In this document: positions 1-17,512 of the stretch, in pieces
Layout of the letters: each line of letters opens with the position of its first letter
How positions within the stretch are numbered: the stretch's first letter is position 1
NCBI GenBank assembly: GCA_002887195.1
Contig: PJAB01001075.1
Coordinates: 1-17,512 of the forward strand
DNA from: Chrysochromulina parva
Lineage: Eukaryota; Haptophyta; Prymnesiales; Chrysochromulinaceae
Length of the DNA stretch: 17,512 nucleotides
Direction: 5' to 3'
Made by a program: the position numbers and the translations under genes
Notes under the pieces: model-generated
Told to the model about the DNA's origin: nothing
Databases searched by the model: none
The model's input: only the letters and a program-made list of their open reading frames with translations

Positions 1-218
1 ACGCCCTCTCCTCTCCCCACAGGTGGCCGAGGCCAAATCGCTCGCCGCCGAGCTGCTCACTGCGCTGCATGCAAGTGCTCACCACGACGCCCTCTCCTCT
101 CCCCACAGGTGGCCGAGGCCGAATCGCTCGCCGCCGAGCTGCTCACTGCGCTGCATGCAAGTGCTCACCACGACGCCCTCTCCTCTCCCCACAGGTGGCC
201 GAGGCCAAATCGCTCGCC
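1..218 (+). repeat. 86-bp direct tandem repeat (about 2.5 copies) holding an exon plus its acceptor
   Basis: The unit starts at 1, 87 and 173. Each holds a pyrimidine-rich acceptor ending CCCCACAG, then 48 coding nucleotides (VAEAKSLAAELLTALH), then GCAAGTGCTC, which could be a GC-type donor. If that donor is used the introns are only 38 nt. The copies differ by a few substitutions, such as AAA to GAA, which suggests a recent duplication. Confidence 0.85.
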
Positions 219-1319
219 GATCGACGAACGTCCGAGCTTGCACGCGTCCAGGTGATTGCATGCTGGCACGTGAATGCATGCTGGCACGTGAATGCATGCT
301 GACAGGCGATTGCATGCTGACCGAACGTCCGTGCTTGCACGCGTCCAGGTGCAGCTGACCGCGCTGCAAGACTCGCAGCATAAGAGCTTGCGATCGGTCG
401 AGCACCTCGACGACCAGGTGCGCATGCATGCATGCTGATTGCCCTCCCCATTTGCATGCTGACTACCCCTCTGCGCGCCTCGACGACCAGCTCGCCGATG
501 AGCAGCAGAGGCGCGAGCAGGCGGAGGAGCAGCTCAAGACGGTGCAGGTGACGGCGGAGGCTGACGAACCTGAAAGCCTCCCTCTTGGAGCCTCTGACGA
601 ACCTCTGAGTGCCTCTTGACGAACCTCCTTGTGCCTCTTGACGAACCTCGGAGTGACAAACCTCCTGGTGCCTCTTGACGAACCTCGGAGTGCCTCTTGA
701 CAAACCTCCTGGTGCCTCTTGACGAACCTCGGAGTGCCTCGGGTGGCTTCTCTCTGGTCTGAGTGCCTCCCTCACTGACGAACCTCTGAGTGCCTCCCTC
801 ATCAGGCGACGCTGAGCACGATCGAGAAGAAGCATGCAAGGGAGTTACGCATTGCCTCAGGCGCGAGCCGCCTCAAGACCACGGCGGCAGCGTGCCAGAC
901 GGAGAGGGGCCATCTGAACCCGGAGAAGGCGCTTCAGACCGACTGGTGCGCCGTGCACATGCCGCTGCCCTGTCCGAGCATGCACGTGCTCACTACGGCG
1001 CCCTCGCCTCCCCACAGGTGCGCCGTGCACATGCCGCTGCCCACGCTGCCGCACGGTGGGTGCATCCTTCCCAAGATACCCTAGGGGGATCAGCATGCAA
1101 TCAGCATGCATGCACGGTGGGTGCATCCTTCCCAAGATACCCTAGATACCCTAGGGGGATCAGCATGCAATCAGCATGCATGCACGGTGGATGCATCCTT
1201 CCCAAGATACCCTAGGGGGATGCGAGCGCCGTAATGACCGCAACCCCATTTATGGGCTCGACGAGCGCCGCGCCGAGCGCAAAACAATTATGGACGGCCT
1301 TTATGATATGCCCGGATGA
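1..1319 (+). CDS. Coiled-coil protein, 3' part of a multi-exon gene (5' end outside the window)
   Basis: I do not recognise the family. Proposed exons are 23-70, 109-156, 195-251, 349-417, 491-547, 806-945, 1018-1055 and 1216-1319, and all phases agree. The product is rich in Glu, Gln, Arg, Lys and Ala with heptad-like spacing (for example LADEQQRREQAEEQLKTVQ and ATLSTIEKKHARELR), so a coiled coil is likely. The tail contains NPIYGLDERRAERK and ends LYDMPG before the stop at 1317-1319. The first two exons are 48-nt near-identical copies. They may instead be part of one longer intron whose left end was duplicated. The 946-1017 intron is 72 nt without a stop, so its retention would only add 24 residues. 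A cytoskeletal or flagellar role is possible but rests only on the coiled coil. Exon existence is fairly sure and exact joins less so. Confidence 0.55.
225..348 (+). repeat. Intron 252-348 flanked by a 27-bp copy of the upstream exon end
   Basis: Bases 225-251 (last 27 coding bases of the exon) recur at 322-348 as the last bases of the intron with one mismatch, and both copies end GCGTCCAG. Between them lies a short array of GCATGCTG-containing repeats. The donor is GTGATT. Confidence 0.85.
405..490 (+). repeat. Intron 418-490 with a 13-bp exon-end copy at its 3' end
   Basis: CCTCGACGACCAG occurs at 405-417 (exon end) and again at 478-490 (intron end), so donor and acceptor sit next to the same sequence. 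The intron interior again holds GCATGCTGATTGCC-type repeats. Confidence 0.8.
548..805 (+). repeat. Intron made of repeated CCTCTTGACGAACCTC units
   Basis: This 258-nt intron (GTGACG to CTCATCAG) is almost entirely a degenerate tandem array of CTTGACGAACCTCNNNGTGC-like units of roughly 20 to 40 nt. Its 3' end TGCCTCCCTCATCAG is shared with introns of other genes in the window. A 230-residue minus-strand reading frame across it is a by-product of the repeat. Confidence 0.75.
1050..1220 (+). repeat. Last intron of the coiled-coil gene: multiplied donor and acceptor unit
   Basis: A unit running from GCACGGTGGGTGCATCC through AAGATACCCTAGGGGGAT to AGCATGCAATCAGCATGCAT occurs about two and a half times. 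Each copy carries the same donor-like CACGGTGGGTGC and acceptor-like ACCCTAG. Using the first donor (1056) and the last acceptor (1215) joins the reading frame to the terminal exon. Confidence 0.7.
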
Positions 1320-2229
1320 GCGCCGTGACGAGCGCGCGTGCCCTGGGTTGAGCGATGCGTTTGCCGAGCGACACCCCAGACCGAATCACGGGGCAAGCAG
1401 TCACTCGCTGCGGAGTACCGCTTCCCCGCTTCGCTCCGGATCTGCCGTGCGGAGTACAGCTGTCTCTTCCCCCCGCCACAATGAATCTCATTCGGGTGAT
1501 TCACAGCTGTCTCTTCTCGCCCCCGCCACTATGAATCTCGTTCGGGAGATTCGTTCAGCAGGCCGCCGCAGGCGCAGGCGGCCAGGCGCGGCACGACGAG
1601 CCCGGCACACCTTTCTCTACTACTATCACCGTGGGGTCGCGAGAAAACGCGACAGTGGCCAAACACGCGGTGCTGATTATGCATCGCACGGATATTCGCA
1701 CCCACCGCGACGGATGGGTCGTCGTTGACGCGGGCACTAGCGACACCACACACGACGCCGCTCTTGACCGTACACACACGTTGACTTCACACGGTCGTCT
1801 GTCACCGCATACTGGTATTCGCCACGATGCGGGCGGCTCCGAGGCGGTAACAATTGCATACCGACGATATTACGTTACGTCGTTACTAAGAACGTTACTG
1901 AACGTGTTGAGCCCGCGGCTTCTCGCCCACGTTTCGGCTCGGCCCCCTGTCGGCTGTGGAAAGTCTTCACGACGAGACTGCCGCCGCCTGACGCTCCAGG
2001 CCACACACGCACTCCCAACCACGCACGCCCTTCACCCACCCACAGCACCTTGATGGCCACTGATGAAACCCCGCCGACGTGAGCGCCGTACTGAGCGTCG
2101 CTACTGCGCAAACCACGGCGCAAACCACGCGCTCGTAGCATGCTGCTAAGCTGGGCGGGATTGCGAGCGCCGTACTGGGCGACTCCAGAATTCAGACGCT
2201 CCTCATTTGGAAGCTCAGCTGGGCGAAGC
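1320..2229. other. Convergent intergenic region with a short direct repeat
   Basis: This lies between the 3' ends of two converging genes. I see no convincing coding exon. A direct repeat of about 48 bp sits at 1457-1503 and 1504-1553 (CAGCTGTCTCTTC through ATGAATCTC and TTCGGG). Near 2085-2200 the phrase GAGCGCCGTACTG is repeated in varied forms. Confidence 0.5.
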
Positions 2230-2995
2230 TCAGCTGGGCGACCCCCCGGGCGACTTCTTCTTGGGTGAGCCGCTGCCCATGCGTGGCGGCGACACAGACG
2301 ATTCCGTATTGCTCCACTGGCCCACCCCATCACGACCCCACCCGTGATACGTGGGGCGGCAGTGGATGCCGGTGGCGTTGTCCCACTGGCGGCCCGTCCA
2401 CGCTTGCCCTACGAACGAGCGGGTGGAGTGGTCATCAGCGCAGAGCGGGCGCGGAGCAATCATCGAGGAGAGGACTCTTAGCACACGGCTCTCAGTACAC
2501 GGAGCTGCGCGCGGGCTGGTGACGCGCGGGCTGGTGTGCGCGCGTACAGGTGTTCGAGTTCTTGCTCGACCAGGGCGGAGCCGCGCCCTCGAGTTGCATG
2601 CATTTGTGCTGCCGGTCGTCGTGCCACGTGGTGTACTGGGCGACCACCCAGCCGTCATTTCCGTCGATCTTGGCGCACGCGATGCAAAGGTCCGCATCGA
2701 CGTGCTTCCACATCGGGTAGCCGTTGGTTTCGCGGTTGGGCACCTTGGCGTACACGCCAAGGCACTGCACCTGCGACTTGAGTGTCGCGCAGTTCGATTC
2801 CGGGTTCTCACCCACCAGGCAGATCTTCATGGGGATGTGCTTGGACGAGGTCGCCACCATCTCTGTCGGAAGGTAATCGTACATGGCCTTCAGCTTGGAT
2901 GGCGGCGAGCGCTCGTAGCGGCCATCAGTCTTGTAGTGGTGGTCATCGTACACCAGACCGAGCTTCTGCTGTTCCTTACCCACGATGCTCGACAT
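2230..2995 (-). CDS. Two-exon protein of unknown function, 208 aa
   Basis: Exon 1 is 2995-2548 and exon 2 is 2408-2230, joined across a 139-nt intron (donor GTACGC, acceptor TTCGTAG). The phase-1 join makes a Trp codon and keeps a clean frame to the stop. The protein starts MSSIVGKEQQKLGLVYDDHH and has a stretch reading NGYPMWKHVDADLCIACAK followed by DGNDGWVVAQ. That is the style of a small beta-rich module in which a Gly-Tyr-Pro-x-Trp turn is followed by Asp-Gly-x-Trp. The second exon repeats aromatic turns (AWTGRQWDNATGIHC) and the tail is basic (GSPKKKSPGG). There is no signal peptide or membrane segment. It is divergent from the gene at 3324 with about 330 bp between starts. Function not assigned. 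Confidence 0.65.
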
Positions 2996-3323
2996 GGTCG
3001 ACCGTCACCTCCAGGGAGACAGGCTCGAGAGTCCGGCGCAAGCAAAAGTTGCAAAAAAAGTTTTCGAAATGGTTTCCAAACTTGCTTAAAATATACTCTT
3101 CACACGTACAGTTCACAAGTCTTTGCGGCCAGCACTCGACGTGCGATGATGCGTCAACGATCGTTCCCACGGCGCGCTTATATTGAAACTCGTGCGTTGT
3201 CGTGAGATTTGCGCGAGAAATGAAACCGTCACCACTCTCACTCAGAACTCGAGAACACTCTGCTCGTGTGTTTGTTGCGTGCGGACGGTCCCGCACCACG
3301 CACGCGAGCACTCTCCGAACGCA
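2996..3323. promoter_or_regulatory. Shared upstream region of a divergent gene pair
   Basis: About 330 bp separate the two start codons of the head-to-head genes. Around 3045-3110 the sequence turns AT-rich (GCAAAAAAAGTTTTCG and GCTTAAAATATACTC), in sharp contrast to the GC-rich flanks. This is what a bidirectional promoter would look like, but I identify no defined element with confidence. Confidence 0.4.
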
Positions 3324-4592
3324 ATGGCCGACACCTGGCGCGTGCCAGGCAACTGGATGAAACATGTTGAGATGGTCAACGGGCGTGGCGAGTTCATTTC
3401 CAAGTGGCTCGGCCGAAATGGCTTGGACGAGGCCCCGCCTTCGCAAGTGTCTCGGCACTGGTTTGGCAAGGACCTCGGACTCGAACGGCAAATGGCGCTG
3501 CAGTATGGACGCCGCGAAACCGATCTCAAAGATTGCACGCCTGGGGCTACTCGGCACGCCCCTGACGCGGGCCAGGTCGCCCATTCCGGTGTGGTCGGGG
3601 CGCACCGTCACATCCACGGTGACCCACAGCAGGTGCGCCTTCCTGCCGACCGCGTCCTGTACGGTGACTACGTGGCCCACCCGGTGCCGAGCGAGTGCGG
3701 CCGCTTGCCCACCCAGCTGCCATGTGTAAACGACAGCTTCTACCTTGGGGGTGGCGCTCAAGGGTCGCACGCCCTACCACGCAACCCGTCGAATTCGGAC
3801 TGGCGAAAAGGTGCCGACGCCGACACAGGTTGGATGTTTGGGCCTCGCGGCGGGGCCAAGGCACCCACGTCGCCTCCGCGTCGTGTCGAAGAGCGGCCGG
3901 CCGAGTGGGGGTCGATTAGGAAGCAGCCCGTGCCGGGTGAACTTGGCCTGCGGCTCACGGACATCCACGAGGGCACACTGGCGAGGGCACGAGCAGACCC
4001 GCCCGACCCTGCGCCGGGCAAATTCCGACGCGTGGCCTCGGACGTCACCTTGGATCGGACGCCCTATGCCCAGAGGATCGCTGAGTTCTCTCGCGCTGAA
4101 GCCGCAGCGGCTGCCCTGGGCAGTGGCGCACGAGGCGGCAAGTGGCTGCGGCACATGAACTCGAGCGTCGATAGTATTGTCTTCGGACGTGATCTTGACG
4201 GATCGGACGATCCGATCGAGCTCGTGCGGCGCGGTGAGAGCAGTGGGCCCCCAGCGCCGTCTATGTGCGGCCCGATAGATCGCTCGACAGCTGGCAAGTC
4301 GAGTGAAAACTTTGGCCGCGAAAACTTGAAACAGATCGCCCTCGCCGACTATGAGCTCGCACAACGCGACCACGACCGCGGCCACTGGATCCACAGTCGC
4401 TTCAGCGCCGACTACCGGCACACGCCCACGGACATCCACACGACGTCGTACGACGAGACCAAATTTCGGCAGCAGGATGCCATCGAAAAGTACGGCGAAG
4501 ACGTCATCATGATCGATGGGCGGCCAAAGTATGGTCGCAGGAGGTCAGCGGCGCTCTTGCCGGCGGACCGCGACTTGCTTCCGCTGTACTGA
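3324..4592 (+). CDS. Single-exon hypothetical protein, 422 aa
   Basis: An uninterrupted frame begins MADTWRVPGNWMKHVEMVNG and ends DRDLLPLY. The frame stays open 47 codons further upstream, but those codons look untranslated (mixed, Cys-rich) and 3324 has a reasonable context (CGCAATGG). The protein is hydrophilic, without a signal peptide or membrane segments. Recognisable stretches are SQVSRHWFGKDLGLERQMAL near residues 40-60, VDSIVFGRDLDGSDDP near 285-300, and a C-terminal region with SADYRHTPTDIHTTSYDETK. The short motifs spaced by Pro- and Arg-rich linker recall flagellar microtubule-associated proteins, but I cannot name a family. A 264-codon frame on the opposite strand (2976-3770) is taken as a shadow. 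Confidence 0.6.
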   Translation: MADTWRVPGNWMKHVEMVNGRGEFISKWLGRNGLDEAPPSQVSRHWFGKDLGLERQMALQYGRRETDLKDCTPGATRHAPDAGQVAHSGVVGAHRHIHGDPQQVRLPADRVLYGDYVAHPVPSECGRLPTQLPCVNDSFYLGGGAQGSHALPRNPSNSDWRKGADADTGWMFGPRGGAKAPTSPPRRVEERPAEWGSIRKQPVPGELGLRLTDIHEGTLARARADPPDPAPGKFRRVASDVTLDRTPYAQRIAEFSRAEAAAAALGSGARGGKWLRHMNSSVDSIVFGRDLDGSDDPIELVRRGESSGPPAPSMCGPIDRSTAGKSSENFGRENLKQIALADYELAQRDHDRGHWIHSRFSADYRHTPTDIHTTSYDETKFRQQDAIEKYGEDVIMIDGRPKYGRRRSAALLPADRDLLPLY

Positions 4593-4691
4593 CGCGGTCA
4601 TGTTGATAGCTATACTGTAAAAAGGTAAAGGGAGGAGTATTTAGTAACAGAATATATGAAGCTTCATACTCGCTCAACAAAAACGTGGGCC

Positions 4692-7206
4692 TCACGTCAA
4701 CGGCGGCTCTGCGACAATGGTCGCCGCGCCTCCGCGGACGACATCCGCATCAGCCACCTCCTTGCCCGAGCTCGAGCTCACGGTCATGCCGAGCTCAGCG
4801 CGGGTCGAGCAGCCGCCGCCGAGCCGGCCCATTTCGAGCTGGGCCTTGCTGCACTCGTACAGCCGGTGCGCTACCCGCATCTTTGGGCTCAGATCGGGCG
4901 GCTCCAGCAGCACCGTCTGCGGTGCGGGCGGTTCGAAGCGCTTCGCGGCGGAGGGGGGCAGCTCGGCAGGCGGCGCGGGCGGCTTGAGGCGCCGAGGGCG
5001 CCCAGTTCGGGGATCCAAGGTGGCGGCTTGCTCAAGGATGGCCGAGAGCATCAGAGCCCCTGCAGCACGCCGATGAGGGGTGTCATCAAACGGTAATCAG
5101 AGGCAATCAGAGGGCGCGATCCCCTCACCTGGCACATGAACCACCACGGAAGGGAGAGTCGACGTCGCTGCTTCGAGTCGCTCTACGGGCCTGATGCCGA
5201 GCGCCGTCTCGCCAAGGGCCGCGAGGCTCTCCAGCCCGAAGACGCACGGCGGCTTGAGGTCACGCCCGGTTTCGTCACCCCCCGCCTGCAGCCGCACCGC
5301 GCCCGAGAGCAACACGAACAAGCCGTCGGGGCGCGCACCCTCGTGATAGAAGGCATGGTAACGGTCGCGCCGCTGTAGCCGGCCGAGTCGAGAGAGGCGC
5401 ACCTGAGGAGGGAGGCAATCAGCATGCACTTAGCACGCAATCAGCATGCACTCATCACGCAATCGTCATGCAATCGTCATGCACTCAGCATGCACTCAGC
5501 ATGCACTCAGCATGCAGTCATCATGCCACCCCGATGCATTAGCATGCCGCGTACCAAGGTCTCGTCGGGCAGAAGGTCGAGCGCCTTACAGCCGCGCAGT
5601 GCCCGGGACGCCGCGTCAGCAAGTGGACAAATCCCCATATCGACGCCACGGCTCCCACCTGATGAGGGATGCAATCAACATGCACTCAGCACGCAATCAG
5701 CATGCAATCCCCATATCGACGCCACGGCTCCCACCAGAGACGAAAGCGTCCGCAATGCGCCGCCCGAGCGAAGAAGGTGCACCGAGCTTGCGCGCCAGCA
5801 GAACTGCCTGTAGAGTCGCCTCCTCCTCTCGCTCACTCTCGCTGAGTACCTGATGAGGGAGGCAATGACGGGTGTCCTCATAGGCAATCAGCGGCAATCA
5901 GCGGCAATCGGATGCAATCAGATGCAATCAGATGCAATCAGCTAAGTACCCGCTCCGTCGGGCGGCCGTAGAGCCGCCTACTGGCCATCACGCCGTGCAG
6001 AGGAGTGTCAGATCTCGCGAGATTTAGAGCTGCCTGGACCTCTCGCCGAGATCGGATCTGCGCCAGCCGCGCCTCTGCCACCTCGACCAGATTCGTCAGA
6101 TTCGTCAGATTCGTCAGATTCGTACCCGGCGTCACGTGCCCAAGCACCTCCGCCAGCATCGTCTCGGCCGCATCGAGCTCCGCCCTGCTCAGCCGCCCCT
6201 CTGCAAACGCGACAGCCGCCGCCGCCGCACGCCCCGAAGCCGCCCTCAAAGTGGCTTCGTCGGTTTCGTCAGTTTCATCCACCGATCGCCCCGAGGCCGC
6301 CCTCAAACTGCTGTTCACAGGCACGCTGTTCACAGGCATGCTGTCCACAGTCCCACGCGGCTCCACCGCCAGTGAACGGTGGTTCACAGCCAGTGAACGG
6401 TGGTTCACAGCCACACGCGGCTCGACTGCGGGCGAGCGCTCCGCCAATCGCCAATCGGCGAGTGCTCGCCAATCGACGTCGGTGGCCACTGCATCCACGT
6501 CGGCATCTGCCTCTGCGTCCGCCTCCGCGTCTGCGTCTGCGTCCGCGTCTGCGTCTGCGTCTGCATCCGCGTCCGTGTCGGTCAACGCCTTGCTCGTGGC
6601 CGACGATCTCCTCTCGATCTCGATCTCCTCTGATCTCCTCTCTCGCGGAGCCCCACCCGTATTGCGTGCCACTGCCGCAGTGGCCGAAGCGGGCCGCCGC
6701 GACCCTGAGCCCTCCGCTCGCCGCTGGGCGCCCAACGAGGCCGACCACGGCCGCGCCGCCCCCCCCGAAGCGCGAGCAGGTCGCGCGGCGGCAGACTTGA
6801 CTTGACTTGACTTGACTTGACTTGACTTGACTTGAACTGCGGCGGCGGACGGGGCTGCCGCTGCTGGCGCAGCACGATGCGGTGGCGGCGGAGGCACAAC
6901 CCACGGTGCGGATGCGTTTGCGCCAGGGAACAACACGGATTGTAAGAGGGTGGTCGGACGAATGGCCGGTGCTGACGCGACCCGACTAAGCGCCGCCACA
7001 TCCATTGGCTCAGGTCCGGCATTGCGAGCGTAGAGAGGGCTCTGGCCGGCCGCTTTGCCCCGTGACACGTGTTGCGAGTGCACAAAGAGCCGACGAGCTG
7101 CGATGAGTGCGGCGGCGGACGGATGTGCACCAGGATCTGGCTTCCACAGGACTCTACCTTCAAAGTGCTCGAAGGTTCTGGTCGCGCGCAGCTTCTCCGT
7201 GTTCAT
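4692..7206 (-). CDS. Cyclic-nucleotide-binding-domain-like protein with low-complexity N-terminal half, about 705 aa
   Basis: Exons on the minus strand are 7206-5950, 5849-5735, 5658-5555, 5402-5129 and 5059-4692, and every phase matches. I chose the start MNTEKLRATRTFEHFEGRVL. The frame is open to 7470, but that stretch has UTR-like codon use. Residues 1-419 are disordered and repetitive: QVKSS units from a CAAGT repeat, an Asp-Ala run near 207-242, two copies of AVNHRSL, and TNL x4 near 360-373. Residues about 475-600 look like a CNB domain: LPDETLVRLSRLGRLQRRDR, then YHEGARPDGLFVLLSGAVRL. The phosphate-binding cassette is degenerate, with FGLES where FGE is usual, so ligand binding is uncertain. 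The tail is Pro/Ala-rich and ends VAEPPLT. It converges with the 3324 gene. Confidence 0.7.
5403..5554 (-). repeat. Intron of CNB-like gene filled with GCATGCTGA-type repeats
   Basis: Between donor GTACGCGG (5554) and acceptor CCTCCTCAG (5403) the 152-nt intron is a degenerate array of units such as TGCATGCTGAG, GCATGACGATT and GTGCTGATTGC, each about 10 to 12 nt. Several are CTGAT or CTGAG, like branch sites. Confidence 0.75.
5630..5734 (-). repeat. 76-nt intron (5734-5659) bounded by a 29-bp direct repeat of exon sequence
   Basis: The 29 bases at 5630-5658 (start of the downstream exon on the minus strand, GTGGGAGCCGTGGCGTCGAT onward) are repeated without mismatch at 5706-5734, where they form the beginning of the intron. 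The donor GTGGGAG therefore equals the first bases after the acceptor CATCAG. Between the copies lies TGCATGCTGATTGCGTGCTG-type sequence ending CATCCCTCATCAG. Confidence 0.9.
5850..5949 (-). repeat. 100-nt intron with CTGATTGC array and 9-bp boundary duplication
   Basis: On the minus strand the intron begins GTACTTAGC and the downstream exon begins GTACTCAGC, a near-identical 9-base boundary repeat. The interior repeats CTGATTGCATCTGATTGC-like units and ends ATTGCCTCCCTCATCAG. Confidence 0.8.
6487..6585 (-). repeat. Hexanucleotide repeat coding for Asp-Ala dipeptides
   Basis: GCGTCT/GCGTCC units on the plus strand translate on the minus strand as an Asp-Ala run with a few Glu, inside the CNB-like protein. 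It is a length-variable acidic stretch. The same bases read on the plus strand give a Ser-Ala run, which is a shadow. Confidence 0.85.
6795..6834 (-). repeat. Pentanucleotide (ACTTG/CAAGT) x8 inside coding sequence
   Basis: Eight exact 5-bp units lie in an exon. Because 5 is not a multiple of 3, three units code QVKSS and the frame survives only at certain copy numbers. Any one- or two-unit slip would shift the frame of the large exon. Confidence 0.9.
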
Positions 7207-8020
7207 GCTTTGTTGCCGATTTGCCGACCGCTCCGGTGGTGGCGTTGTCGCAGACTTGTGCGGCCTGCTGTCGAATGGAGCGATCGACAACAGAGAGCTG
7301 GCCGATTGGGCTGCGCGCGGATTCCCAGGCAATCTTGCGAGTCGTGGCTGCACGTGGGCATCCATCCTTAGCGCCGCAAAAAATCTGCCGCCTTCACGAA
7401 CCGCTTCACATTGGGCCCGGAGCGTGAGCGCGCGTTGTGTTGAACAGCATACGAACCGCCCACAAGCCAAGTCAAGTCTGCTCTACGCTTTTATCGCCGA
7501 TTCTCAGAGTCGGCGCGACCGCGTAAACGCAGGAATCGATGAACCGTAATGGCTCCCGCCCCGCCCCCCCCGCGCCGCTTCGCGCCGCGCGGCGCTAAAT
7601 TTCATAAACGTGACGCCGACGGCTCGCGCCGCGGGTCGGACCTCGCTTCTACCTTATTTGGGTTATTTGATATTTGTGCACCCGGGCTACAGTTTCACAC
7701 ACACATGTCTAGAAGAGACTAGAGAGCGGAGAGGTAGACAATACCTCTCTCGTCGAGTCTGCACGGCGGGAGGTCCCTAAGTTCGTTCCTTCCAACGTAG
7801 CTCCAGTTGCGAGTTGCGCCATTCATGTACCGCTCAGGCCTCAGCTCGTCGCGTGTACTCTTTACAGTTCGTCAGTGTCCGTTTGTATCTCGCTCCTTAA
7901 TTTCGTAAGGAGGTCGTGCTCATTCGTCATTGCCCGCCATTTCTGAGACGTCACGCAGATTGCGCACCTATTGACCTCGTGTCGTAACTCACCTGCCATG
8001 TCCTGTCATGCTGATGTCAT
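7207..8020. other. Intergenic and probable 5' untranslated region; no gene seen
   Basis: The first part (to about 7470) is in frame with the CNB-like gene and is probably its leader. The rest includes GC-rich sequence with an inverted repeat (GCGCCGCTTCGCGCCGCGCGG around 7570-7595) and mixed-composition sequence. A 164-codon plus-strand frame (7055-7549) runs antisense to the CNB-like start and shows no recognisable features. Confidence 0.4.
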
Positions 8021-8122
8021 GAAGGGGCTTCATCGGTCTCGTTAATGAAGGGGCTTCATCGGTCTCGTTGATGAAGGGGCTTCATCGGTCTCGTTAATGA
8101 AGGGCTTCATCGGTCTCGTTGC
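8021..8122 (-). repeat. 26-bp tandem repeat, four copies, each a small hairpin
   Basis: Units begin at 8021, 8047, 8073 and 8099. Each contains ATGAAGGGGCTTCAT or a one-base-shorter form, a 6-bp stem around a 2-3 nt loop, followed by CGGTCTCGTTAAT or CGGTCTCGTTGAT. The array starts about 55 bases beyond the stop of the minus-strand helix-turn-helix gene, so it probably lies in that gene's 3' untranslated region. Confidence 0.85.
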
Positions 8123-8177: not shown

Positions 8178-8891
8178 CTACTCAGGAATCCCATGAGGTG
8201 CGCCCAGGAACAGAAGCTCATGGGCAGCCATCCGCGTGTCCCAGTCGAACGGCTTCTGGTCGGCGGGGGCGTGGGCGGTGGGCAGCGGCACGTGGGGAGA
8301 CTGCGCTCGGTACGACGCGTCGCGTGGTGAGCCGGCGTTCCCGAGCGGCGTGTCGCTGTGGCTGGACGCGTTCGTGGTCTCACTGGTCGCGGTGCGTGAG
8401 AGGGGACGCTCGACTGAGCACGACGCGAGCACCACCTCGGCGTCCTCGTCCCCATCCAGAGATGAGGTGTCGACCTGCCAAATTAGGGAGATGTCGTCCT
8501 CATCGCGGCGCCCGAGACGGCGCTGCTGCGGCGGTCGCGGCGGCTGCAGCCGATCCCGCGGTTTCCTGGCAGACGCCCTTGCGCATGCAATCAGCGCCGT
8601 ATCGGGCGCCTCATCCGTCGCGATCATCTCAAGGCTGCTGGTGGACTCACACTCTTCGCGTTCACACTCGCTCACGTCGTAGTCGGCGAAAGTCTCGATA
8701 CGCGAGCCCATGTTCAACCCCATGGCTTCCGCGTGCTTACGCAGCCACTTGCGAACCTGCACCGGCTCGACGCCCGGATGCGCACGCGCAGTCGGCTTGA
8801 TTCGATTCGACTCGGGCAGACGGAGGGCGAACTGGACGACCCGCATTTTGAACTGGGCCGTGTACACCTTGCGGGAGCGCGGGATCTGCAC
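8178..8891 (-). CDS. Homeodomain-like helix-turn-helix DNA-binding protein (5' end uncertain)
   Basis: The N-terminal 50 residues read RSRKVYTAQFKMRVVQFALR, then HPGVEPVQVRKWLRKH. This is the trihelical pattern of Brinker/pipsqueak/CENP-B-type DNA-binding domains, in which a YT-x-x-FK start leads to an R-x-W recognition helix. The remaining 180 residues are hydrophilic, with an acidic Ser-rich patch (SECEREECESTSS), a basic RRLGRRDEDD segment, and an end FLGAPHGIPE. No transposase catalytic core is present, so a host transcription factor or domesticated transposon DNA-binding protein are both possible. There is no ATG before the domain. The frame begins at a GTG next to TTGTGCAG, which could be an acceptor, so an upstream exon probably supplies the start. 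Confidence 0.6.
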   Translation of the reverse strand: MQIPRSRKVYTAQFKMRVVQFALRLPESNRIKPTARAHPGVEPVQVRKWLRKHAEAMGLNMGSRIETFADYDVSECEREECESTSSLEMIATDEAPDTALIACARASARKPRDRLQPPRPPQQRRLGRRDEDDISLIWQVDTSSLDGDEDAEVVLASCSVERPLSRTATSETTNASSHSDTPLGNAGSPRDASYRAQSPHVPLPTAHAPADQKPFDWDTRMAAHELLFLGAPHGIPE

Positions 8892-9179: not shown

Positions 9180-9553
9180 GAAGCCGCGGCCCCTCCCTGT
9201 TGCCGTCGGCCGACGGCGTTTCCGTGTGTAACTCTAGAAAAATCTCCGTGTGAGGTGCGACCTCCGCGATTCCAACCCGAAAGTGTAGACGAAGGGGTGC
9301 CCACGTAACCTCGTGTCCTCGAGCGCCTTACGCTCGTGCCGGACGTAGGTGAGCTGGGACTCCAGAGACGCCCGTGTGCTGCGCCCATCCGATTTATAAC
9401 CCGCACCCTCGTCAACACGTCACACCTCGGACGAGAAACAAAAGACAACCTATGCATACTAGAACTTGACTTGTCTTTAGTCTTGACGCGTCTAACTTGA
9501 CTTTGACTTGACCTCGTGACGAAGCGCTCGGTGACGCCGAACGAATCAATATA
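9180..9553. promoter_or_regulatory. Upstream region between divergent genes
   Basis: This lies between the probable start of the helix-turn-helix gene and the phosphatase gene. Just before the latter (9462-9512) the pentamer CTTGA or TTGAC occurs repeatedly in loosely spaced form. No TATA-like element is convincing. Confidence 0.3.
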
Positions 9554-10390: not shown

Positions 10391-10724
10391 GTTCTAGTTT
10401 GGTGTCGATCGATGTGCGCCGCAGGGGGCAGGGCGCGCTGCAGTGCCGGCCGGTTCACATCAGAGGCTCAAGAGGGACCTCCAATTTAAGGATCCTGAGC
10501 GGGCGCGGCGCCCCGCGCTGAGTCTGTGGGCACACTTCGTACGGGTGTAGCTCTACACATATCCGCAAGACTTGCCTCAAGGCTGTCATGAAATTTCGTC
10601 GAAATGGTAGGTTGCATGATGGTGCATACATGTATCAACGGGTGGGGGACGGGGCACCAGCGGCTCGAAAAAAGGGCCTTCACACAGTCGCCTTCACACG
10701 AGCCTTCCTGCACGACCGCGGTCC
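10391..10724. other. Intergenic region upstream of the PUB-WD40-PFU-UBA gene
   Basis: No coding exon is supported. It should contain the 3' end of the phosphatase transcript and the promoter of the next gene on the same strand. I see no clear element. Confidence 0.3.
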
Positions 10725-12978
10725 ATGGTCGTGCACGACAAACTCTCGAGCGCGCTGCGCACCTTTGCGACTGCCAACCCGTTCTCCACGCTCGAGGAGA
10801 GCGGTCGCGTGCTCTCCACGCTGCTCAGCAACCTGGCGCGTGAGGACACGCCCAAGTTTCGCCGCGTCAACCTGACGAATGCCAAGATCAAGGCCGCCGT
10901 GCTCGGCGCGGCGGGCGCCCGCGAGGTGCTCATCGCCGCGGGCTTTTCGGCTGTCGAGGACGGTTCGGCGCTCGAGATGACCGGCGACGGCGCCTCGGCG
11001 CGCGCCGCCGCCGCCTCCGCTGCGCTCGACGAGGCGCTCGTCGCCGCCGGTGGCCCGTTCGCGCTTCGGCAGCGCCTGGCGCACGAGGCGCGCTGCTGCT
11101 GTGGCGGCGCCCCCGGCGAGGCTGGCACGGTGCTCACCGGCGGCATGGACAACCTGGTCAAGGTCTGGTCAACCGCGCTGCCGCTGCAGGGCGCCGCAGA
11201 GCCCTTGCGAGTCTTCGTCGCGCATGAGAATGCGCGCGGCGCGTCGGGCGTGCTGGCGCTGTGCTCGCTGCCAGGCGGCGCGGTCGCCTCGGCGGGCCGC
11301 GACGGCAAGGTCGTGGTGTGGGATGCCTCCGACGTGGCGGGAGGCGGCGGCGCGGGCGGCGCAGTGCCGCTCGCAATCCTGATCACTCACGGAGAGCCGC
11401 CAGGAAAGGAAGTCTCGAACAAGCAGGTATAATGGCGTTGATTGATTCGTTGATTGCCTCCCTCATCAGGAAAGGAAGTCTCGAACCAGCAGGTATACTG
11501 GCGTTGATTGATTCGTTGATTGCCTCCCTCATCAGGTGGTGACTTGCCTGGCGAGAGAAGGCGGCGATGCGGGCGGCGCGCTGTGCTCCGGCGGCTGGGA
11601 TCAGACCGTCCGGGTCTGGCATCCGCTCCCCGGAGGAGCAACCCCGACCCCCGCGGCGCTGCTCCACGAGCAAGCCGTGCTCGCCATTTGCGTGCTACCG
11701 GATGGTCGACTGCTCAGCGGCGCGGGCGATGGCACCGTTGGCGTGTGGCGCCGGCCCGTGTCGAGCGCCGTCTCGAGCGCCGGTTTCGTCAAGGAGGCGG
11801 AGTGCAAGGTGCAGACGGTCGTCAGAGGCCTTGCGCCGTACGCCGGCGGCTTCGCGCAGGCACGCTGATGACCTCTGATGACCTCTGATTACCACTGATT
11901 ACCTCGGATGACCACTGATGACCACTGATGACCACTGATGACCACTGATGACCTCTGATTACCTCTGATTACCGCCGTACGCCGACGGCTTCGCGCAGGT
12001 CGGCAACGACGGCGTCCTCCGTCTCTGGGCGCTCGACACGGCGCTCGTAGCTGGCGCGCCGCGTCTCGCGTGCAGGTGCGCTGATGACCTCTGATGACCT
12101 CTGATGACCTCTGATGACCTCTGATGACCTCTGATGACCTCTGATGACCTCTGATGACCTCTCATCACCGGCGCCGCGCTTCGTGTGCAGCACGCCCTCG
12201 GTCGGCTGCTACCTCTTCGCCGTCGTCAACTGCACGCCCGACGGCGCCGCCCGATACGGCGCGCCCGAGCAGCTCGCCGTCGGAGGTGATGATGGCTGCG
12301 TGCGCATCTGGCGCGCTGCCAGCCAGGGCGCGGCGATGCCCAATACGGCGCCGGGCGCGATGCCGACGGCCCTCGAGTGCATGCAGACCGTGCGCGTCCC
12401 GGGCGAGGTCTTCGGGCTATGCCTCCTATCCGATGGCGACCTGATCGCGGCGTGCGATGCCGCCGGAGCCGTCGTCTTCACACGGGCTCCCGGCCGCGCC
12501 GCACTAGCGGCCGCCCAAAAATCACTCGCCACCGAGGCGGACGCCTTCGCGACGCCCGCGACGAGCGCCGCCAGCGCCGCTGGCGCCGCCAGCGCCGCTG
12601 GCGCCGCTGGCGGCGGCAACTTGGCGCGTCCGAAACAGATGGCCGCGGATGGCAAGCAATATGACTTCGTCTTTCCGGTCGAGATGGGTGGCGGCAAGGC
12701 ACAGATCTTTTGGAACATCGGCGACGACATCCGGACCGTCGCCGCACAGGTACGCTGATTACCACTGAGTACCTCTGATTACCACTGATACCACTCTGAT
12801 TACCATCCGGACCGGCGCCGCGTAGCGACGCTGATTACCACTGATTGCCTCTGATTAACTCTGATTAAATCTGATTAACTCTGATTACCATCCGGACCAT
12901 CGCCGCGTAGTTTGCTCTGCGGAACGGCGTCGGCCTCGATGAGCTCTCCTCCATTGAAGAGTTCATGCGCATGGCGGC

Positions 12979-13025
<47 letters not shown>

Positions 13026-13195
13026 TGCCCATGGAGCAGGCCCCGCCGCCGCCCGCGCCCCTGCTCGGCGCGGCTGAGATGCAATCTCGCGTGCAGCAGC
13101 TGGTGACCATGGGGTTCGATGCGCAGCGGTCACTGGCGGCACTGCAGCAGGCGGGTGGGGACGTGGAGGTGGCACTCGGCGTGCTGCTCGGCTGA
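10725..13195 (+). CDS. PLAA/Ufd3-like protein with PUB, WD40, PFU and UBA domains, 648 aa
   Basis: Exons are 10725-11426, 11536-11859, 11999-12075, 12191-12749 and 12911-13195, with matching phases. Residues about 5-110 resemble a PUB domain (LLSNLAREDTPKFRRVNLTN, then AREVLIAAGFSAVEDGSALE), which in other proteins binds the p97/Cdc48 C-terminus. Residues about 120-480 hold seven WD40-like blades ending TVRVW, VGVW, VLRLW and VRIW. The last, QTVRVPGEVFGLCLLSDGDL, closely matches the end of the PLAA propeller. Residues about 512-575 match PFU, a ubiquitin-binding module (DGKQYDFVFPVEMGGGKAQI, then IGDDIRTVA). After a poly-Gly run, residues about 605-648 form a UBA domain (VQQLVTMGFDAQRSLAALQQ). 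Expected role: ubiquitin-dependent p97 cofactor. No PUL domain is present. Exon 3 follows a GC-AG intron. Well supported overall. Confidence 0.85.
11401..11535 (+). repeat. 66-bp tandem duplication creating intron 1 of the PLAA-like gene
   Basis: The unit CAGGAAAGGAAGTCTCGAAC onward starts at 11401 and 11467 and contains exon end, donor (AGCAGGTATA) and acceptor (CTCATCAG). The intron used is probably 11427-11535. If the internal copy were kept as an exon it would be 23 nt and shift the frame. Confidence 0.85.
11835..11998 (+). repeat. GC-AG intron 2 with 11 decamers and a 25-bp exon-end copy
   Basis: Exon bases 11835-11859 recur with one mismatch at 11974-11998, both ending GCTTCGCGCAG. The intron starts GCACGCTGATGACC and consists of 11 ten-base units of the type CTGATGACCT or CTGATTACCA (11865-11974). 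Confidence 0.9.
12056..12190 (+). repeat. Intron 3 with eight perfect CTGATGACCT decamers and a 20-bp exon-end copy
   Basis: Exon end 12056-12075 is repeated with three mismatches at 12171-12190 as the intron end. Bases 12081-12160 are eight exact copies of CTGATGACCT. The donor is GTGCGCTGATG, clearly related to the donors of introns 2 and 4. Confidence 0.9.
12728..12910 (+). repeat. Intron 4: exon end present three times, separated by CTGATTACCA repeats
   Basis: A 22-bp sequence beginning CATCCGGACC and ending CGCCGC with an AG occurs at 12728-12749 (exon end), 12804-12825 (mid-intron) and 12889-12910 (intron end). The first two are followed by ACGCTGATTACCACTGA. The third is followed by the next exon (FALRNGVGLDEL), so only the first donor and last acceptor are used. 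Confidence 0.9.
12981..13026 (+). repeat. GGC repeat coding for poly-glycine
   Basis: About a dozen GGC codons in a row form a flexible linker between the PFU and UBA domains. This is a likely site of length variation. Confidence 0.85.
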
Positions 13196-13307
13196 GCGCG
13201 CGACCGCGCAACGCTCACTGGAAGGCGATGGTTCAGTGTTGGGAGTCGGGTGCGGTTTTAGTGCTCAGTACGGCGCGTTTGCTCATGACGACGCGGGCAA
13301 CAAATAA

Positions 13308-13808
13308 ATGAGATTCAGCTTGTGGGCGCTGCTCGCGCTCGACGTCCACGCGTTCGGTTCGAGCTGCCAACTGTCGACAGCGAGCTCCCGAAGCAGGCGA
13401 GCCGCGACGAGGCTCTCGGATTCAGCAGCTCCACCTGGGTCGTATGTGGGCTTCGTGCAATCTAAGCTCAGGGCGGGTATTCCAGGGGTCGTGCATTGCC
13501 ACGTGCGCGATTGCAGCGACGGCCACACGGTCACGGGCTTTTCGGATGGCAGCAACCGGGCGCTGGCCAAGGATGGCATACAGCTCGAGGTGCTCATCGT
13601 CGCGAGCGCCTTTGAAGGTGTGAGCACGATGAAGAGGCACCGGACCGTCCACGCGTGCCTCGACGAGGAGTTCAAGCGCAACGCCATACACTCAATCGAG
13701 CTCAAGACGCTTACCGCCGAGCAGTGGGAGGACATGGGGGGGCCTCCCACCTACGCGGCGATGGCGGCCAGCCAAAGGCAAGCGGCCTTCAAGATTGAGA
13801 CATCTTGA
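13308..13808 (+). CDS. BolA-like protein with probable plastid targeting, 166 aa
   Basis: Residues about 48-148 match the BolA family: FVQSKLRAGIPGVVHCHVRD, then LEVLIVASAFEGVSTMKRHR followed by TVHACLDEEF and an end with LKTLTAEQWED. The family pattern of a Phe-x-Gly near an Arg-His-Arg before the last helix is present. BolA proteins act with monothiol glutaredoxins in iron-sulfur handling. The N-terminus MRFSLWALLALDVHAFGSS is a short signal peptide with a likely cut before Phe. It is followed by a Ser/Arg/Ala-rich stretch (STASSRSRRAATRLSDS) without acidic residues until its end, as in bipartite plastid leaders of secondary red algae. The region between the gene and the preceding UBA stop is only 112 bp, so the two plus-strand genes are tightly packed. 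It is a single exon. Confidence 0.82.
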   Translation: MRFSLWALLALDVHAFGSSCQLSTASSRSRRAATRLSDSAAPPGSYVGFVQSKLRAGIPGVVHCHVRDCSDGHTVTGFSDGSNRALAKDGIQLEVLIVASAFEGVSTMKRHRTVHACLDEEFKRNAIHSIELKTLTAEQWEDMGGPPTYAAMAASQRQAAFKIETS

Positions 13809-14578
13809 CGCGTCTAGATGCCCTTGTGGGCGCCCCAGAGCCCTGCTGTATCTCTTTGGCCGCGTGTGCTGGGGCGCAGGGACCGCGCGCGAGTCGCGCG
13901 CATTCATTGTAGCGGAGGTTTATAGTTTTGTCGTGTTGCGCGCGCTGCCAGGCTACGTTACTCGACTCGGGGTGCCGGGAGACGGCCGGGCAGTTGTGAG
14001 AACCAGAGTAGCGCGTGGAGCGGCCGTAGCGCCCGTCGGTGAAAGCCGTGTCGCCGGCGAGCCGGACCGGACGGTACGCCGGGTCTACGCAACGCGAACA
14101 CGGCGTGTCGCTCTCGGCTTCTGTATTGAGTATTCCGTTTTGATTATTTCTTTATTTGACTCCTACGGTCACGCGGGGCCGGGGGTCTTACGGTCGGGCG
14201 CACGGGTAAGCCGCTCCCGGCAATTGGGTATTGGGCTCCCGCCCTCCCGGGCGCCCGGACCACAGGGCGCCCCCCTCGACCCGGGCAGGAGGTAGAATTG
14301 CAATACCATCATGCCCCATGGTAGCTGATCCTGATCGGTGTGCCCCAATCTATGCCACGCGACACAAATGAATGCATGAGATCCCCGATGCCGGCTGCTG
14401 CATGCTGCGCCAGAGCTTTTCCCGTGGTGCGCAATCCAGTTCCGCCAAGAGTTCGCCCATCACAGCGCCCGCCCATCACAGCGCCAGCCCATCACAGCGC
14501 CAGCCCACCACAGCGCCTGCCCACCACGGCGCTCGTCCATCACACGCCCTCGTGGCGTTTAGGTAGGGGGCTTCCTAA
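13809..14578. other. Convergent intergenic region without a supported gene
   Basis: This lies between the BolA-like stop and the kinase-like stop on the other strand. It includes GC-rich sequence with small inverted repeats (GGGCGCCCGGACCACAGGGC near 14249) and a T-rich patch near 14135-14160 (TTTTGATTATTTCTTTATTT). Reading frames here show no family features. Confidence 0.4.
14454..14549. repeat. 16-bp tandem repeat, about six copies
   Basis: Units of the type CGCCCATCACAGCGCC start at 14454, 14470, 14486, 14502, 14518 and, degenerate, 14534. The array lies about 30 bp beyond the kinase-like gene's stop codon. Confidence 0.85.
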
Positions 14579-17212
14579 TTAGGTAGGGGGCTTCCACTCA
14601 GTGTCGGCGAAGGGCGCCGTCCCGGCAGGGATGCGCATCTGCGCGTCAAAGAGTCGCAGAGCGGCCCTCCACTTGCCCTCGCGGTTCGTCGTACCCTGCG
14701 GCGTCGCGAGATCGACCGTCTCCACCTTAATCATCCGAGATCATACGAGATCATACGAGATCATCCGAGATCATCCTAGATCATCCGAGGCAATCAGGGC
14801 ACACCTTCGGCGTCGCGAGATCGACCGTCTCCACCTTGATCATCGTCTCGTTGTTGTCGGCGGCCAGCTTGTTGAGAGTGATGTACCTGAAGAAGGAGGC
14901 AGCGTCAGATGCGATCAGCCGCCATCAGCCGTCATCAGCAGTCGTCACTAGCACACTCCGAATGTGTGGTCATCAGATGTACCCGTCGGTGCCATAGCCC
15001 TCCATCGGAGCGAGGTGTAGCGTGCCGCCAAAGTACTTTGCGTATAGTCGCGCGAGCGGCAGCCCCAGCCCCACCTGAGATGAGGAGATTCGATGAGATG
15101 CAATGAGAGATCAGATGCGATAAGATGCGATGAGATGCGGCAGCCCCAGCCCTACCTTCCAATTCGCATCGCCGACCTGAATCATTCGATATCTTCCGAG
15201 ATCATCCGAGGCAATCAGGGCACACCTTCCAATTCGCATCGCCCACCGAGACCGGAAGGACTTTTCGGTCAGTCGCCACCTTCCAATTACGGTCCGTGTG
15301 CATGCTGCGAGAGGACCGCACGCCGTCAGCTGATGAGAGAGGCAATCCGTGAGGTCATCCGTGCCAATGAGATGGCATCTCATGAGCTGCTGATGAGAGA
15401 GGCAATCCGTGAGGTCATCCGTGCCAATGAGATGGCAGCTCATCAGCGCACGCACCTGCGATAGGACCAGATGTCCGCAAGACCCGAGCGCGGCATTCCG
15501 CCAGCTTGGTCCGCCACTTTGATGGTCACATTCGCGTCGCTCACCTGAGGATGGAGGCCAACCGATCCCAAATTAGGTCATCATCAGGCGAGATCAGGCG
15601 AGATCCACCGCTCACCGCCACGATGACGCGGATGGGGAGCGATTCCAAATCGACAGTGCGCCCAGAGCCAGATTGTGACGAAACGTGACGAAGCGTCGCC
15701 TTGGAGGCGTTCGAGAGCAGCTCGCCCACTACGAAGCGCAGGTGGCTCGGCACGTACCTGATGGCGGACGCAATCAGAGCTCATTAGAGCTCATTAGAGC
15801 TCATTAGAGCTCATCAGAGCTCACCGGAGCTCATCGGAGCTCATCAAAGCTCATCAGAGCTCATCAAGCGCAGGCGAATCGGTGCTTACGTGAAGCTATG
15901 CGAAGGGTCGCCGTGGACATGAATGGGAGGCAATCAAGGAGTTTCGTCAAGATGCGTACGTGAAGCTATGCGAAGGGTCGCCGTGGACGTGAATGGGAGG
16001 CAATCAATGAGTTTCGTCAAGATGCGTACGTGAAGCTATGCGAAGGGTCGCCGTGGACGTGAATGGGAGGCAATCAATGAGTTTCGTCAAGATGCGTACG
16101 TGAAGCTATGCGAAGGGTCGCCGTGAACGTGAATGGGAGGCGCGGCCCCAAACTGGGCACGCGTCCATTCACTCATCTCGTCGGCGAGCTCCTTGCACAC
16201 GGCCACAGGCGAGCACGCGAGCTCGATGATACCAGCGTACCTGATGAGGGAGGCCATCAGGTAGGCCATCAGAGCTTATCAAAGGCCATCCATGGCCATC
16301 AGAGCTCATCAGAGCTTCTCAGAGCTCATCAGAGCTCATCAGAGGCCATCGGCGCACCCCTCCCGCGGCTGCCGCGCGCCCAAAAAGTGCTCCGTGAGAA
16401 ACCGGAGACCCAATCTGGCCGAGAAGATCGCGTCCAGATGCCGGTCGATCGCGAGCTTCAGGGCCGCGTCGAGCCCCGACGAGCCGTTGGCCTCTGATGA
16501 GCTTTGATTAAGTGACTCCTCCACACGGAGGTGTGAAGGAGACTCCTCGGTGTGAAGCGACGTGAGCGCCTCGGCGAACGTGCGTCGCGTCTCGCCCTCC
16601 TACTCCGCAACACCGCAAGAGCTCCACCAATCAGTGTGGCCATCGGACGCAATCAGGCGCAATCAAGGGGAAGACCTCCACCTGCTCCTCAAAGCGCAGG
16701 CGCAAGCGGCCCGCGAACTCCAGCTCGTCGCCCGCGTTGGTCATGCGCGGCTGCTCAAGGAGAAAAAGGAGGCGCTGCCAGTAGGCCGTCGTGAGCAGCT
16801 GCACCGCGGGCTGGCGTGCCAGCTCCGAGGGCACCGCAAGGAGCAGAGAGAGGATGTGCGCTCTGCGCGCCAGGAGCTCACGCCGCACAAACTTTGCGTT
16901 GAGCAGCGCTTGCTCCGCCGAGCGAGCCTGCATCTCGGCCGCACGTTGCAGTGTGCGGATGGACACCGGTGTGGGCGGCAGGAGCTCTGTGAGCCTCGCG
17001 ATGGTCTCGCGACACGGCGGTGCATGGCGCATCGCAAGCAGCTGGCTCGTGAGCTCGGGCAGCGCCAAAGTGCTGCTGCTGCCGCCGCTGCTGCTGCCGA
17101 GCTGCCGCACGGCGGCACGGGCTGAGCGATGGCAGTCGAGACTGCTGCTGCCGAGCTGTGCTGCACGGGCCGTGCGATGGGGAGCCAAGAGCAAGGTGCG
17201 CACGGTCGCCAT
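14579..17212 (-). CDS. Mitochondrial 2-oxoacid dehydrogenase kinase-like protein (PDK/BCKDK family), about 504 aa
   Basis: Nine minus-strand exons are proposed: 17212-16682, 16599-16358, 16240-16100, 15757-15616, 15544-15456, 15304-15226, 15074-14983, 14886-14805 and 14695-14579. All joins keep phase. The start [20 protein letters not shown] is an Arg-rich, acid-free mitochondrial presequence. Family marks are [20 protein letters not shown] (helical domain), an N-box ELLSNASKA near 317-325, a G1-box [14 protein letters not shown] near 361-374, a G2-box [17 protein letters not shown] near 409-425, and [12 protein letters not shown]. These kinases phosphorylate E1-alpha of pyruvate or branched-chain dehydrogenase. 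The usual His-Asn motif of the helical domain is not visible: the matching place reads [15 protein letters not shown] across the first splice. The lid segment between G1 and G2 is unusual ([15 protein letters not shown]), and exon 6 has alternative possible edges. Confidence 0.82.
14699..14837 (-). repeat. Kinase-like gene intron 8 with a 30-bp exon-end copy
   Basis: Bases 14808-14837 (exon 8, coding [10 protein letters not shown]) recur exactly at 14699-14728, just inside the acceptor CCGCAG of intron 14804-14696. The interior is an array of GGATGATCTC or GTATGATCTC decamers. Confidence 0.9.
15075..15304 (-). repeat. AATTGGAAGGT donor-side unit present three times around exon 6
   Basis: On the minus strand AATTGGAAGGT occurs within exon 6 (followed by GGCGACTGACC), at its proposed end (15226, followed by GTGCCCTGATT) and inside the following intron (followed by AGGGCTGGGGCTG). 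The last two share GGCGATGCGAATTGGAAGGT. The intron also carries a partial copy of the next exon's start (GGGCTGGGGCTGCCGC). Several in-frame splice combinations are possible. Confidence 0.7.
15320..15446 (-). repeat. 59-bp direct repeat inside intron 5 of the kinase-like gene
   Basis: A block containing GATGAGAGAGGCAATCCGTG on the plus strand, followed by AGGTCATCCGTGCCAATGAG and ATGGCA, occurs twice, with the two blocks starting near 15332 and 15391. On the minus strand each ends with GATTGCCTCTCTCATCAG, so the intron carries two copies of an acceptor. Confidence 0.8.
15758..15887 (-). repeat. CTCTGATGAG/CTCTAATGAG decamer array in intron 3
   Basis: From about 15778 to 15866 the plus strand repeats AGAGCTCATT or AGAGCTCATC. 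On the minus strand that is CTCTAATGAG or CTCTGATGAG, each with a CTRAT core resembling a branch site, ending GATTGCGTCCGCCATCAG at the acceptor. Confidence 0.85.
15888..16146 (-). repeat. 70-bp tandem repeat (about 3.7 copies) of an exon end with its donor
   Basis: TGAAGCTATG starts at 15891, 15961, 16031 and 16101, an exact 70-bp period. On the minus strand each copy reads exon-like CCTCCCATTCACG, then CGGCGACCCTTCGCATAGCT, then TTCAC with a donor GTACGC (GTAAGC in the last). Only the first copy (16100 upward) can code, because reading past its donor meets TGA within four codons. Intron 3 is therefore 342 nt with three decoy donors. Confidence 0.9.
16241..16357 (-). repeat. Intron 2 of the kinase-like gene: CTCTGATGAG/GATGGCC array
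   Basis: The donor is GTGCGCCGATGG and the acceptor GATGGCCTCCCTCATCAG. The interior alternates CTCTGATGAG with CTGATGGCC-type units. The exon after it starts GTACGC, similar to the donor. Confidence 0.75.
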
Positions 17213-17398
17213 CCTCCTCAGGCCGCCTCGTCCTACCTCATTGTTTTTGTTCTCGCTTCCGGAGAATTTGGGAGATAATAAAAGTTGAATCAGCGACCCG
17301 CCACCCTTACACCGCTGGGAAAGCACCGACACTTTTGTGACTCAATACGAAGCGCACTTGCGCATCGTTTTCGAGACACGAGTGAGGGGGGAGCACGC

Positions 17399-17512
17399 TT
17401 AGTACTCCTCGCCCTCCTCCTCGCCCTCGCCCTCGGCCGACTCGGCGCCGACCTCCTCGTAGTCCTTCTCGAGGGCGGCGAGGTCCTCGCGGGCCTCGGA
17501 GAACTCGCCCTC
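17399..17512 (-). CDS. Alpha-tubulin, C-terminal 37 residues (5' part outside the window)
   Basis: The last 37 codons read [20 protein letters not shown], then [17 protein letters not shown] and a stop. [20 protein letters not shown] at the end of helix 12 is characteristic of alpha-tubulin (beta-tubulin differs here), and the acidic tail ends in the usual EEY that is subject to detyrosination. Codon third positions are almost all G or C, as expected of a highly expressed gene in this genome. It is transcribed in the same direction as the downstream kinase-like gene, with 186 bp between this stop and that gene's ATG. Confidence 0.95.

Follow-up and report, generated by a model that had tools for sequence, protein, structure and literature searches.

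How do the introns of a single algal contig come to be bounded by copies of the neighbouring exon edges? The question is raised by contig PJAB01001075.1 of the haptophyte Chrysochromulina parva (assembly GCA_002887195.1), the whole of which, 17,512 nucleotides long and numbered C1075 in our set, is referred to here as the window; the analysed assembly comprises 45,074,565 bases in 2,199 contigs, and the G+C content is about 64% in the 247,512 bases examined. The importin-beta gene of this genome is matched at 95% by a sequence in an ENA-held cluster of 102 sequences, while the haptophyte Diacronema lutheri provides its best named hit, at 49%. The original prediction had noted direct repeats at ten introns of the window and left two models side by side, the tandem duplication of an exon segment and the insertion of introner elements with duplication of the target. 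Our data support the latter: the repeats are very probably target-site duplications produced by the insertion of short mobile introner-like introns. This is directly supported by the copies of intron families across the genome, the long repeats specific to each locus, the restoration of the reading frame in one of the families (family A) and the restoration of one protein domain.

Intron families and their boundary repeats

The 20-nt intron 3' end TGATTGCSTCCCTCATCAGG of family A has 1,781 matches in the genome with at most one mismatch and none for the reversed pattern, and the donor pattern CAGGTRCGCTGATKRCC has 52 against none for its control. A second core, GCAAGTGCTCACCACGGCGC, defines family B, the second element family of the window, where it is carried by the intron at 946..1017; it has 1,676 matches with at most two mismatches and 2 for the control. 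These counts are of matches and not of distinct introns, some of them lying in tandem. Near-identical intron sequence, extending as far as the splice boundary, is therefore shared by loci that are otherwise unrelated, the constancy of the 3' end at the 60 sites sampled below being a selection effect and the similarity on the 5' side having been judged by eye. When 7.9 kb of the window was compared with its own genome, the non-self matches fell on intron and repeat arrays and on a GGC run, some of them reaching or bridging the adjoining exon. Among the matches listed in this search (40 of 842 candidates scored) none was confined to an exon and none represented a second allele or an exon paralogue. 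Judged from the sequence, the material between the repeats is mobile family sequence and not exon sequence.

Two arrangements of the repeats were distinguished. In mode II the sequence following the acceptor is repeated upstream, while in mode I the upstream exon edge is copied at the 3' end of the intron. The donor position and the acceptor position of each intron were compared in register, and in the cross-locus controls the upstream part of one locus was paired with the downstream part of another. For mode II, 60 exact acceptor sites, all on longer contigs, were picked by hand from 100 among the matches listed to TGATTGCSTCCCTCATCAGG; the 40 omitted mostly had a close neighbour, and a few were left out without a stated reason. 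The post-acceptor sequence was found repeated upstream with a score of at least 11, abutting the junction, at 34 of the 60 sites and in 1 of 355 controls. For mode I, sampled as 20 of the 52 sites with introns starting GTRCGCTGAT, the exon edge was copied in 12 of 20 cases; among 380 control pairs there were 9 such repeats, the score reaching 28 in one of them. The original prediction had proposed to weigh the boundary duplications against chance, and in this genome sample they lie far above it. Family B gave repeats at 18 of 23 sites and in none of 468 controls, in a sample biased towards tandem loci.

Removal of 10 tandem or overlong sites from the 34 left a clean set of 24, which was used for the length statistics; one of the dropped sites, L086 (47 bp), is probably clean as well. 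The clean repeats span 11–42 bp (median 26), are identical in 11 of the 24 sites and at least 90% identical in 22, and the donor is GT or GC in 23. The target duplication thus supplies one splice site, as in introners. In the reconstructed empty sites (n = 24) position −1 is G in 18 and position +2 is T in 20, G at +1 being forced by the search pattern. The identity of 11 pairs is consistent with the ongoing creation of introns that had been suggested from the range of repeat lengths and divergences. It also bears on the idea that old introns were homogenised by gene conversion and acquired repeats through later slippage in a repeat-prone genome. Such a history would agree with the many minisatellites and with the 26 of 60 sites that carry no repeat, but the repeats lie in register at the splice junction and nearly half of the clean pairs (11 of 24) have not diverged at all, and we regard it as very unlikely.

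The first model of the original prediction, in which an AGGT-containing exon segment is duplicated in tandem and the intron runs from the GT of copy one to the AG of copy two, would account for direct exon-edge repeats at intron ends and for the 60–86-bp tandem units of the window. However, the inter-repeat material belongs to a family with 1,781 (or 1,676) near-matches instead of being exon sequence, and in the 24 clean sites the left copy has no recognisable CATCA intron end before it. The model is contradicted because the inserts are common to unrelated loci, and it appears highly improbable; as the origin of the introns, exon tandem duplication was rejected, the body of the inserts being repeat-family sequence and not derived from exons. 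Tandem duplication does occur, and frequently, in the form of units composed of exon edge and intron.

If the insert is an intron together with one repeat copy, its excision should join the reading frames on both sides. The best frame was called separately on each side from codon usage based on 46,832 codons of long open frames, and agreement after excision of the insert and one copy is expected by chance in one case out of three. Mode II sites agreed in 24 of 34 cases (21 of 23 where both sides were confident) and mode I sites in 9 of 12 (8 of 9 where confident). Since the length of only 6 of the 24 clean mode-II introns is divisible by three, this agreement cannot be put down to inserts that happen to be in frame.

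Individual loci provide some further observations. At L003 (about 1370–1600) an intron array splits an apparent ATPase P-loop, and by eye the joining of a GT donor to a CACAG acceptor would restore GNPGTGKS, which we take to be the P-loop motif. At L017 (about 5125–5235) and L012 (about 8240–8340) there are family-B inserts ending near CACCACGGCGC, lacking an AG acceptor and flanked by long direct repeats; these copies are possibly inserted in reverse orientation or unspliceable.

The PLAA-like gene and the other introns of the window

The restored protein domain is encoded by a PLAA-like gene of the window, which contains four of the introns in question:

10725..13195, plus strand: PUB-WD40-PFU-UBA (PLAA/Doa1-like) gene; exons 10725-11426, 11536-11859, 11999-12075, 12191-12749 and 12911-13195
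11427..11535, plus strand: intron with a 66-bp tandem unit of exon edge plus intron; units 11401-11466 and 11467-11532; 3' end TGATTGCCTCCCTCATCAG
11860..11998, plus strand: mode-I intron; exon edge 11834-11859 copied at 11973-11998 (25/26); insert start GCACGCTGATGACC
12076..12190, plus strand: mode-I intron with a 10-bp array; exon edge 12056-12075 copied at 12171-12190 (17/20); donor GTGCGCTGATGACC, exact position uncertain
12750..12910, plus strand: mode-I intron, donor GTACGCTGATTACC; exon edge 12728-12749 copied at 12804-12825 and 12889-12910

Removal of the four segments yields an open spliced frame of 648 aa, from which splicing of these introns is predicted. The PFU domain is interrupted by the intron 12750..12910 and would be restored by splicing, its profile score rising from 20.1 bits in the exon alone to 29.8 bits in the spliced frame (cut-off 26.2). 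In this intron, which belongs to repeat family D4, 17 of 18 bases match when the register is set four bases ahead of the splice point, and the third copy is internal. Alignment of the predicted protein with five homologues revealed no extra repeat copy at junction 1 (5/5), at junction 2 in the 4 homologues covering it or at junction 4 in the 2 covering ones. The CAG acceptor of the intron 11860..11998 comes from the second repeat copy, and the spliced peptide GGFAQVGNDGV across it agrees with the homologues; the array inside this intron recurs across the genome. The 66-bp unit at 11401-11532 is a tandem repeat of about 97% identity, and the 10-bp array of the intron 12076..12190 has the unit CTGATGACCT. 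A GTAGCT donor is found upstream of intron 3 (window 12040-12080). Beyond the introns, the coding (GGC)n run at 12973-13025 encodes a poly-glycine linker between the PFU and UBA domains.

The remaining introns and repeat units of the window are the following:

1..219, plus strand: 86-bp tandem unit consisting of an exon segment and a family-B intron (repeat-unit analysis)
252..348, plus strand: mode-I intron; exon edge 225-251 copied at 322-348 (26/27)
418..490, plus strand: mode-I intron; exon edge 405-417 copied at 478-490 (13/13)
946..1017, plus strand: mode-II intron of family B; exon-2 start 1018-1042 copied at 946-970, supplying the GT donor (25/25)
5659..5734, minus strand: mode-II intron; exon-2 start 5630-5658 copied at 5706-5734 (29/29); acceptor ...CATCCCTCATCAG
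5850..5949, minus strand: mode-II intron with a short 9-bp repeat (8/9, marginal); acceptor TTGCCTCCCTCATCAG
14696..14804, minus strand: mode-I intron; exon edge 14805-14844 copied at 14696-14735 (38/40)
15075..15155, minus strand: mode-II intron; exon-2 start 15056-15074 copied at 15137-15155 (18/19)
15177..15246, minus strand: mode-II intron; exon-2 start 15154-15176 copied at 15224-15246 (22/23)
15758..16141, minus strand: 10-bp array and 70-bp unit (3.7 copies), in or beside a BCDHK-like gene; approximate boundaries

By in-register comparison and repeat-unit analysis, the exon-edge repeats or repeat units that had been listed for ten introns were recovered in nine. Seven have clear exon-edge repeats of 13–40 bp in the in-register comparison, two have the tandem units of 66 and 70 bp, and the case of 5850-5949 is marginal: its repeat scores 7, with the 95th percentile at 6 and the 99th at 22 among 5,978 random donor/acceptor pairs from the same repeat-rich window, a control inflated by the window's own arrays. 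The segment 15758-16099 is an array and not a single exon-edge pair, the in-register match being only GTACG; its 70-bp unit at 15883-16141 is a tandem repeat of about 97% identity. The introns 946-1017, 15177-15246 and 15075-15155 and the 86-bp unit at 1-219 are additions to the earlier list. The window also contains a 26-bp unit in four copies at 8019-8120 (96%), which includes ATGAAGGGGCTTCAT and is not an intron of families A or B, a BolA-like gene at 13308-13808 (plus strand), part of a BCDHK-type mitochondrial kinase gene at 16631-17341 (minus strand) and, as read by eye, the C-terminal end of an alpha-tubulin-like gene at 17401-17512 (minus strand).

Several observations weigh against insertion as the origin of the repeats. 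In 26 of the 60 acceptor sites no repeat was detectable despite 3' ends that are exact copies, and 10 of the 34 repeat-bearing sites had to be excluded as tandem or overlong. Among the sites that lack a repeat, the acceptor is followed by GT or GC in 23 (this G was included in the search pattern), and in several a plausible GT donor can be recognised by eye; these sites may be older, or their duplications may be too short for detection. A count of repeat pairs whose edges hold a donor and an acceptor in register, made over 247 kb irrespective of the element, gave 15 for mode II versus 7 with the roles swapped and 15 versus 17 for mode I, and the positional histogram of AGGY at the repeat edges had no sharp peak. 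We think that the contrast was swamped by coding repeats; the element-free counts being weak, the element-anchored tests described above were used in their place. In family B the frames agree at 8 of the 21 sites scored, at 5 of the 14 called confidently and, of the latter, at 4 of the 11 that carry a repeat, which is about what chance would give. Most family-B loci are tandem arrays with an intron as the upstream flank, where the frame test is poor, and it lends no support there. Finally, the predicted PLAA-like protein is about 7 residues longer than its homologues near junction 3, where the chosen donor may be wrong and the true one possibly lies further upstream. The family-B frame result and the discrepancy at junction 3 somewhat weaken the case for insertion.

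Proposed insertion mechanism and its possible engine

According to the scheme that we propose, a copy of an intron family, about 30–200 bp long, would enter an exon at a widely staggered break, the fill-in of which would duplicate about 11–47 bp of the exon, and the spliceosome would excise one of these copies along with the insert, leaving the mRNA with the sequence that it had before. A single element family shows both splice arrangements. In the mode-II arrangement the left copy, opening with GT or GC, would serve as the donor, and the element would bring CTGAT, which we take to be branch-point-like, pyrimidines and the CATCAG acceptor (CCTCCCTCATCAG); in mode I the element would bring the GTRCGCTGAT donor and the right copy would end in the CAG acceptor. 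An insertion would probably survive only where the target provides the splice site that the element lacks, other insertions being lost. The flanking direct repeats may recombine, giving rise to tandem arrays of exon edge plus intron, and secondary tandem expansion acting on such units is common. Splicing in vivo and the origin of the repeats as insertion duplications, as well as the enzyme considered below, are what we infer from the direct support named at the outset.

DDE transposases leave a fixed short target duplication. The duplications in the 24 clean sites spread over 11–42 bp within one family instead of having a short fixed length, and a cut-and-paste transposase is for this reason a poor fit. 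Thus, although introners elsewhere have target-site duplications that supply one splice site (PMC9860276), cut-and-paste transposition of a non-autonomous element, as inferred for most published introners, is unlikely. The capture of intron fragments in the repair of staggered double-strand breaks, as proposed for Daphnia and operating without a dedicated mobile element, is a more serious though tentative alternative. It agrees with the variable length of the repeats, with the variability of the insert at the end opposite to the splice site that the element brings and with the apparent lack of terminal inverted repeats, of which none was noticed by eye, no search aimed at them having been made; the only symmetry seen by eye inside the element 3' end is the 5-bp CTGAT/ATCAG. 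On the other hand, the repeats measure 11–47 bp against 4–12 bp in Daphnia (PMC4202315), and the families to which the inserts belong each have far more than a thousand near-matches.

The other candidate engine is a target-primed process of the LINE (long interspersed nuclear element) type. Matches to the reverse-transcriptase profile PF00078 occur at five places in the genome, one of them with a stop. The endonuclease profile PF03372 and PF00078 match at short distance from each other at C34:41247-43766 and C324:5581-7396 (both minus strand), in genes that are LINE-like, and parts of the reverse transcriptase are present in L115 and L113. The two C34 matches lie within one open frame of 2,660 residues, which in a comparison with solved structures had as its best, weak matches the reverse-transcriptase-like 8gh6 (E 9.5e-05; presumably R2), LINE-1 ORF2 (E 0.0068) and R2 (E 0.044). 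No PF14529 endonuclease was found in the genome by profile search, and the element 3' end of the TGATTGCSTCCCTCATCAGG type, taken as an exact pattern, was not found in viral contigs. A second reverse-transcriptase family (FVDDAAN by eye) has long open frames at L114 (C103) and L116 (C1434).

Short non-coding copies with target duplications of variable length are characteristic of short interspersed nuclear elements (SINEs) mobilised by LINEs. The inserts described here resemble them in both respects; they differ in acting as predicted spliceosomal introns and in the variable 3' ends of mode I. The latter (in sites selected on the 5' end) speaks against retroposition, as does the fact that the reverse-transcriptase matches are few and weak. 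Mode II combines a constant 3' end with variation at the 5' end, the sites having been selected on that 3' end. A LINE-type process is possible, while insertion with duplication is well supported, and we consider the target-primed process and the capture of fragments at staggered breaks about equally likely as the engine. In the former case spliceosomal introns might perhaps spread as retroposons, intron RNA being copied into exons at LINE-type staggered nicks with duplications of 20–30 bp. If this tentative idea is true, the spliceosome erases one duplicate, which makes the insertions nearly neutral, and recombination between the duplicates makes the introns both expandable and precisely reversible.

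Comparison with known systems

The gain of introns in bulk is a long-standing question, and most introner families surveyed in print resemble DNA transposons (PMC9860276). No description of introners with 20–30-bp duplications was present among the matches listed from the open-licence PMC literature (titles and abstract openings). The long variable duplications, found in over half of the sampled copies, serve as a molecular clock and as a record of the empty site, so that one could read at each locus how an intron was gained, how a splice site was captured and, possibly, how precise loss occurred.

Loose repeats of 4–30 bp (mean 11.4) were reported by Rogers and Bendich near 213 introns of several kinds (PMC11782384); a Mirusvirus paper (PMC12768974) and a Micromonas paper (PMC3879977) are also cited in this connection. 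In Daphnia pulex new introns are attributed to the repair of staggered breaks with 4–12-bp repeats (PMC4202315); the variable length is shared with our introns, but the excerpted text does not present the inserts there as members of a single family of high copy number. The introners of Amoebophrya have direct repeats of 3–5 nt and inverted repeats of 8–20 nt (PMC7789003). There too the introns recur and have direct repeats that span the boundaries between exon and intron; most of them are non-canonical, however, whereas those of C. parva are mostly GT/GC-AG.

The closest likeness is to the introner families surveyed by Gozashti et al. in 2022 (PMC9860276), many hosts of which are unicellular algae: in both cases repeated introns would be made by insertion, the target-site duplication, where present, can supply one splice site and the element the other, and the copy number is high. 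A Chrysochromulina family of that survey has 4-bp target-site duplications, its own 5' splice site and a borrowed 3' one. Low-complexity families were removed there, and surveys that discard such families may have missed a mobilisation route. The introns described here differ from the published families in that the duplications are variable and 11–47 bp long instead of the 3–9 bp cited in the survey for earlier families, that both splice arrangements occur with shared repeat sequence and that family A is minisatellite-like, that is, of the very kind filtered out in the survey.

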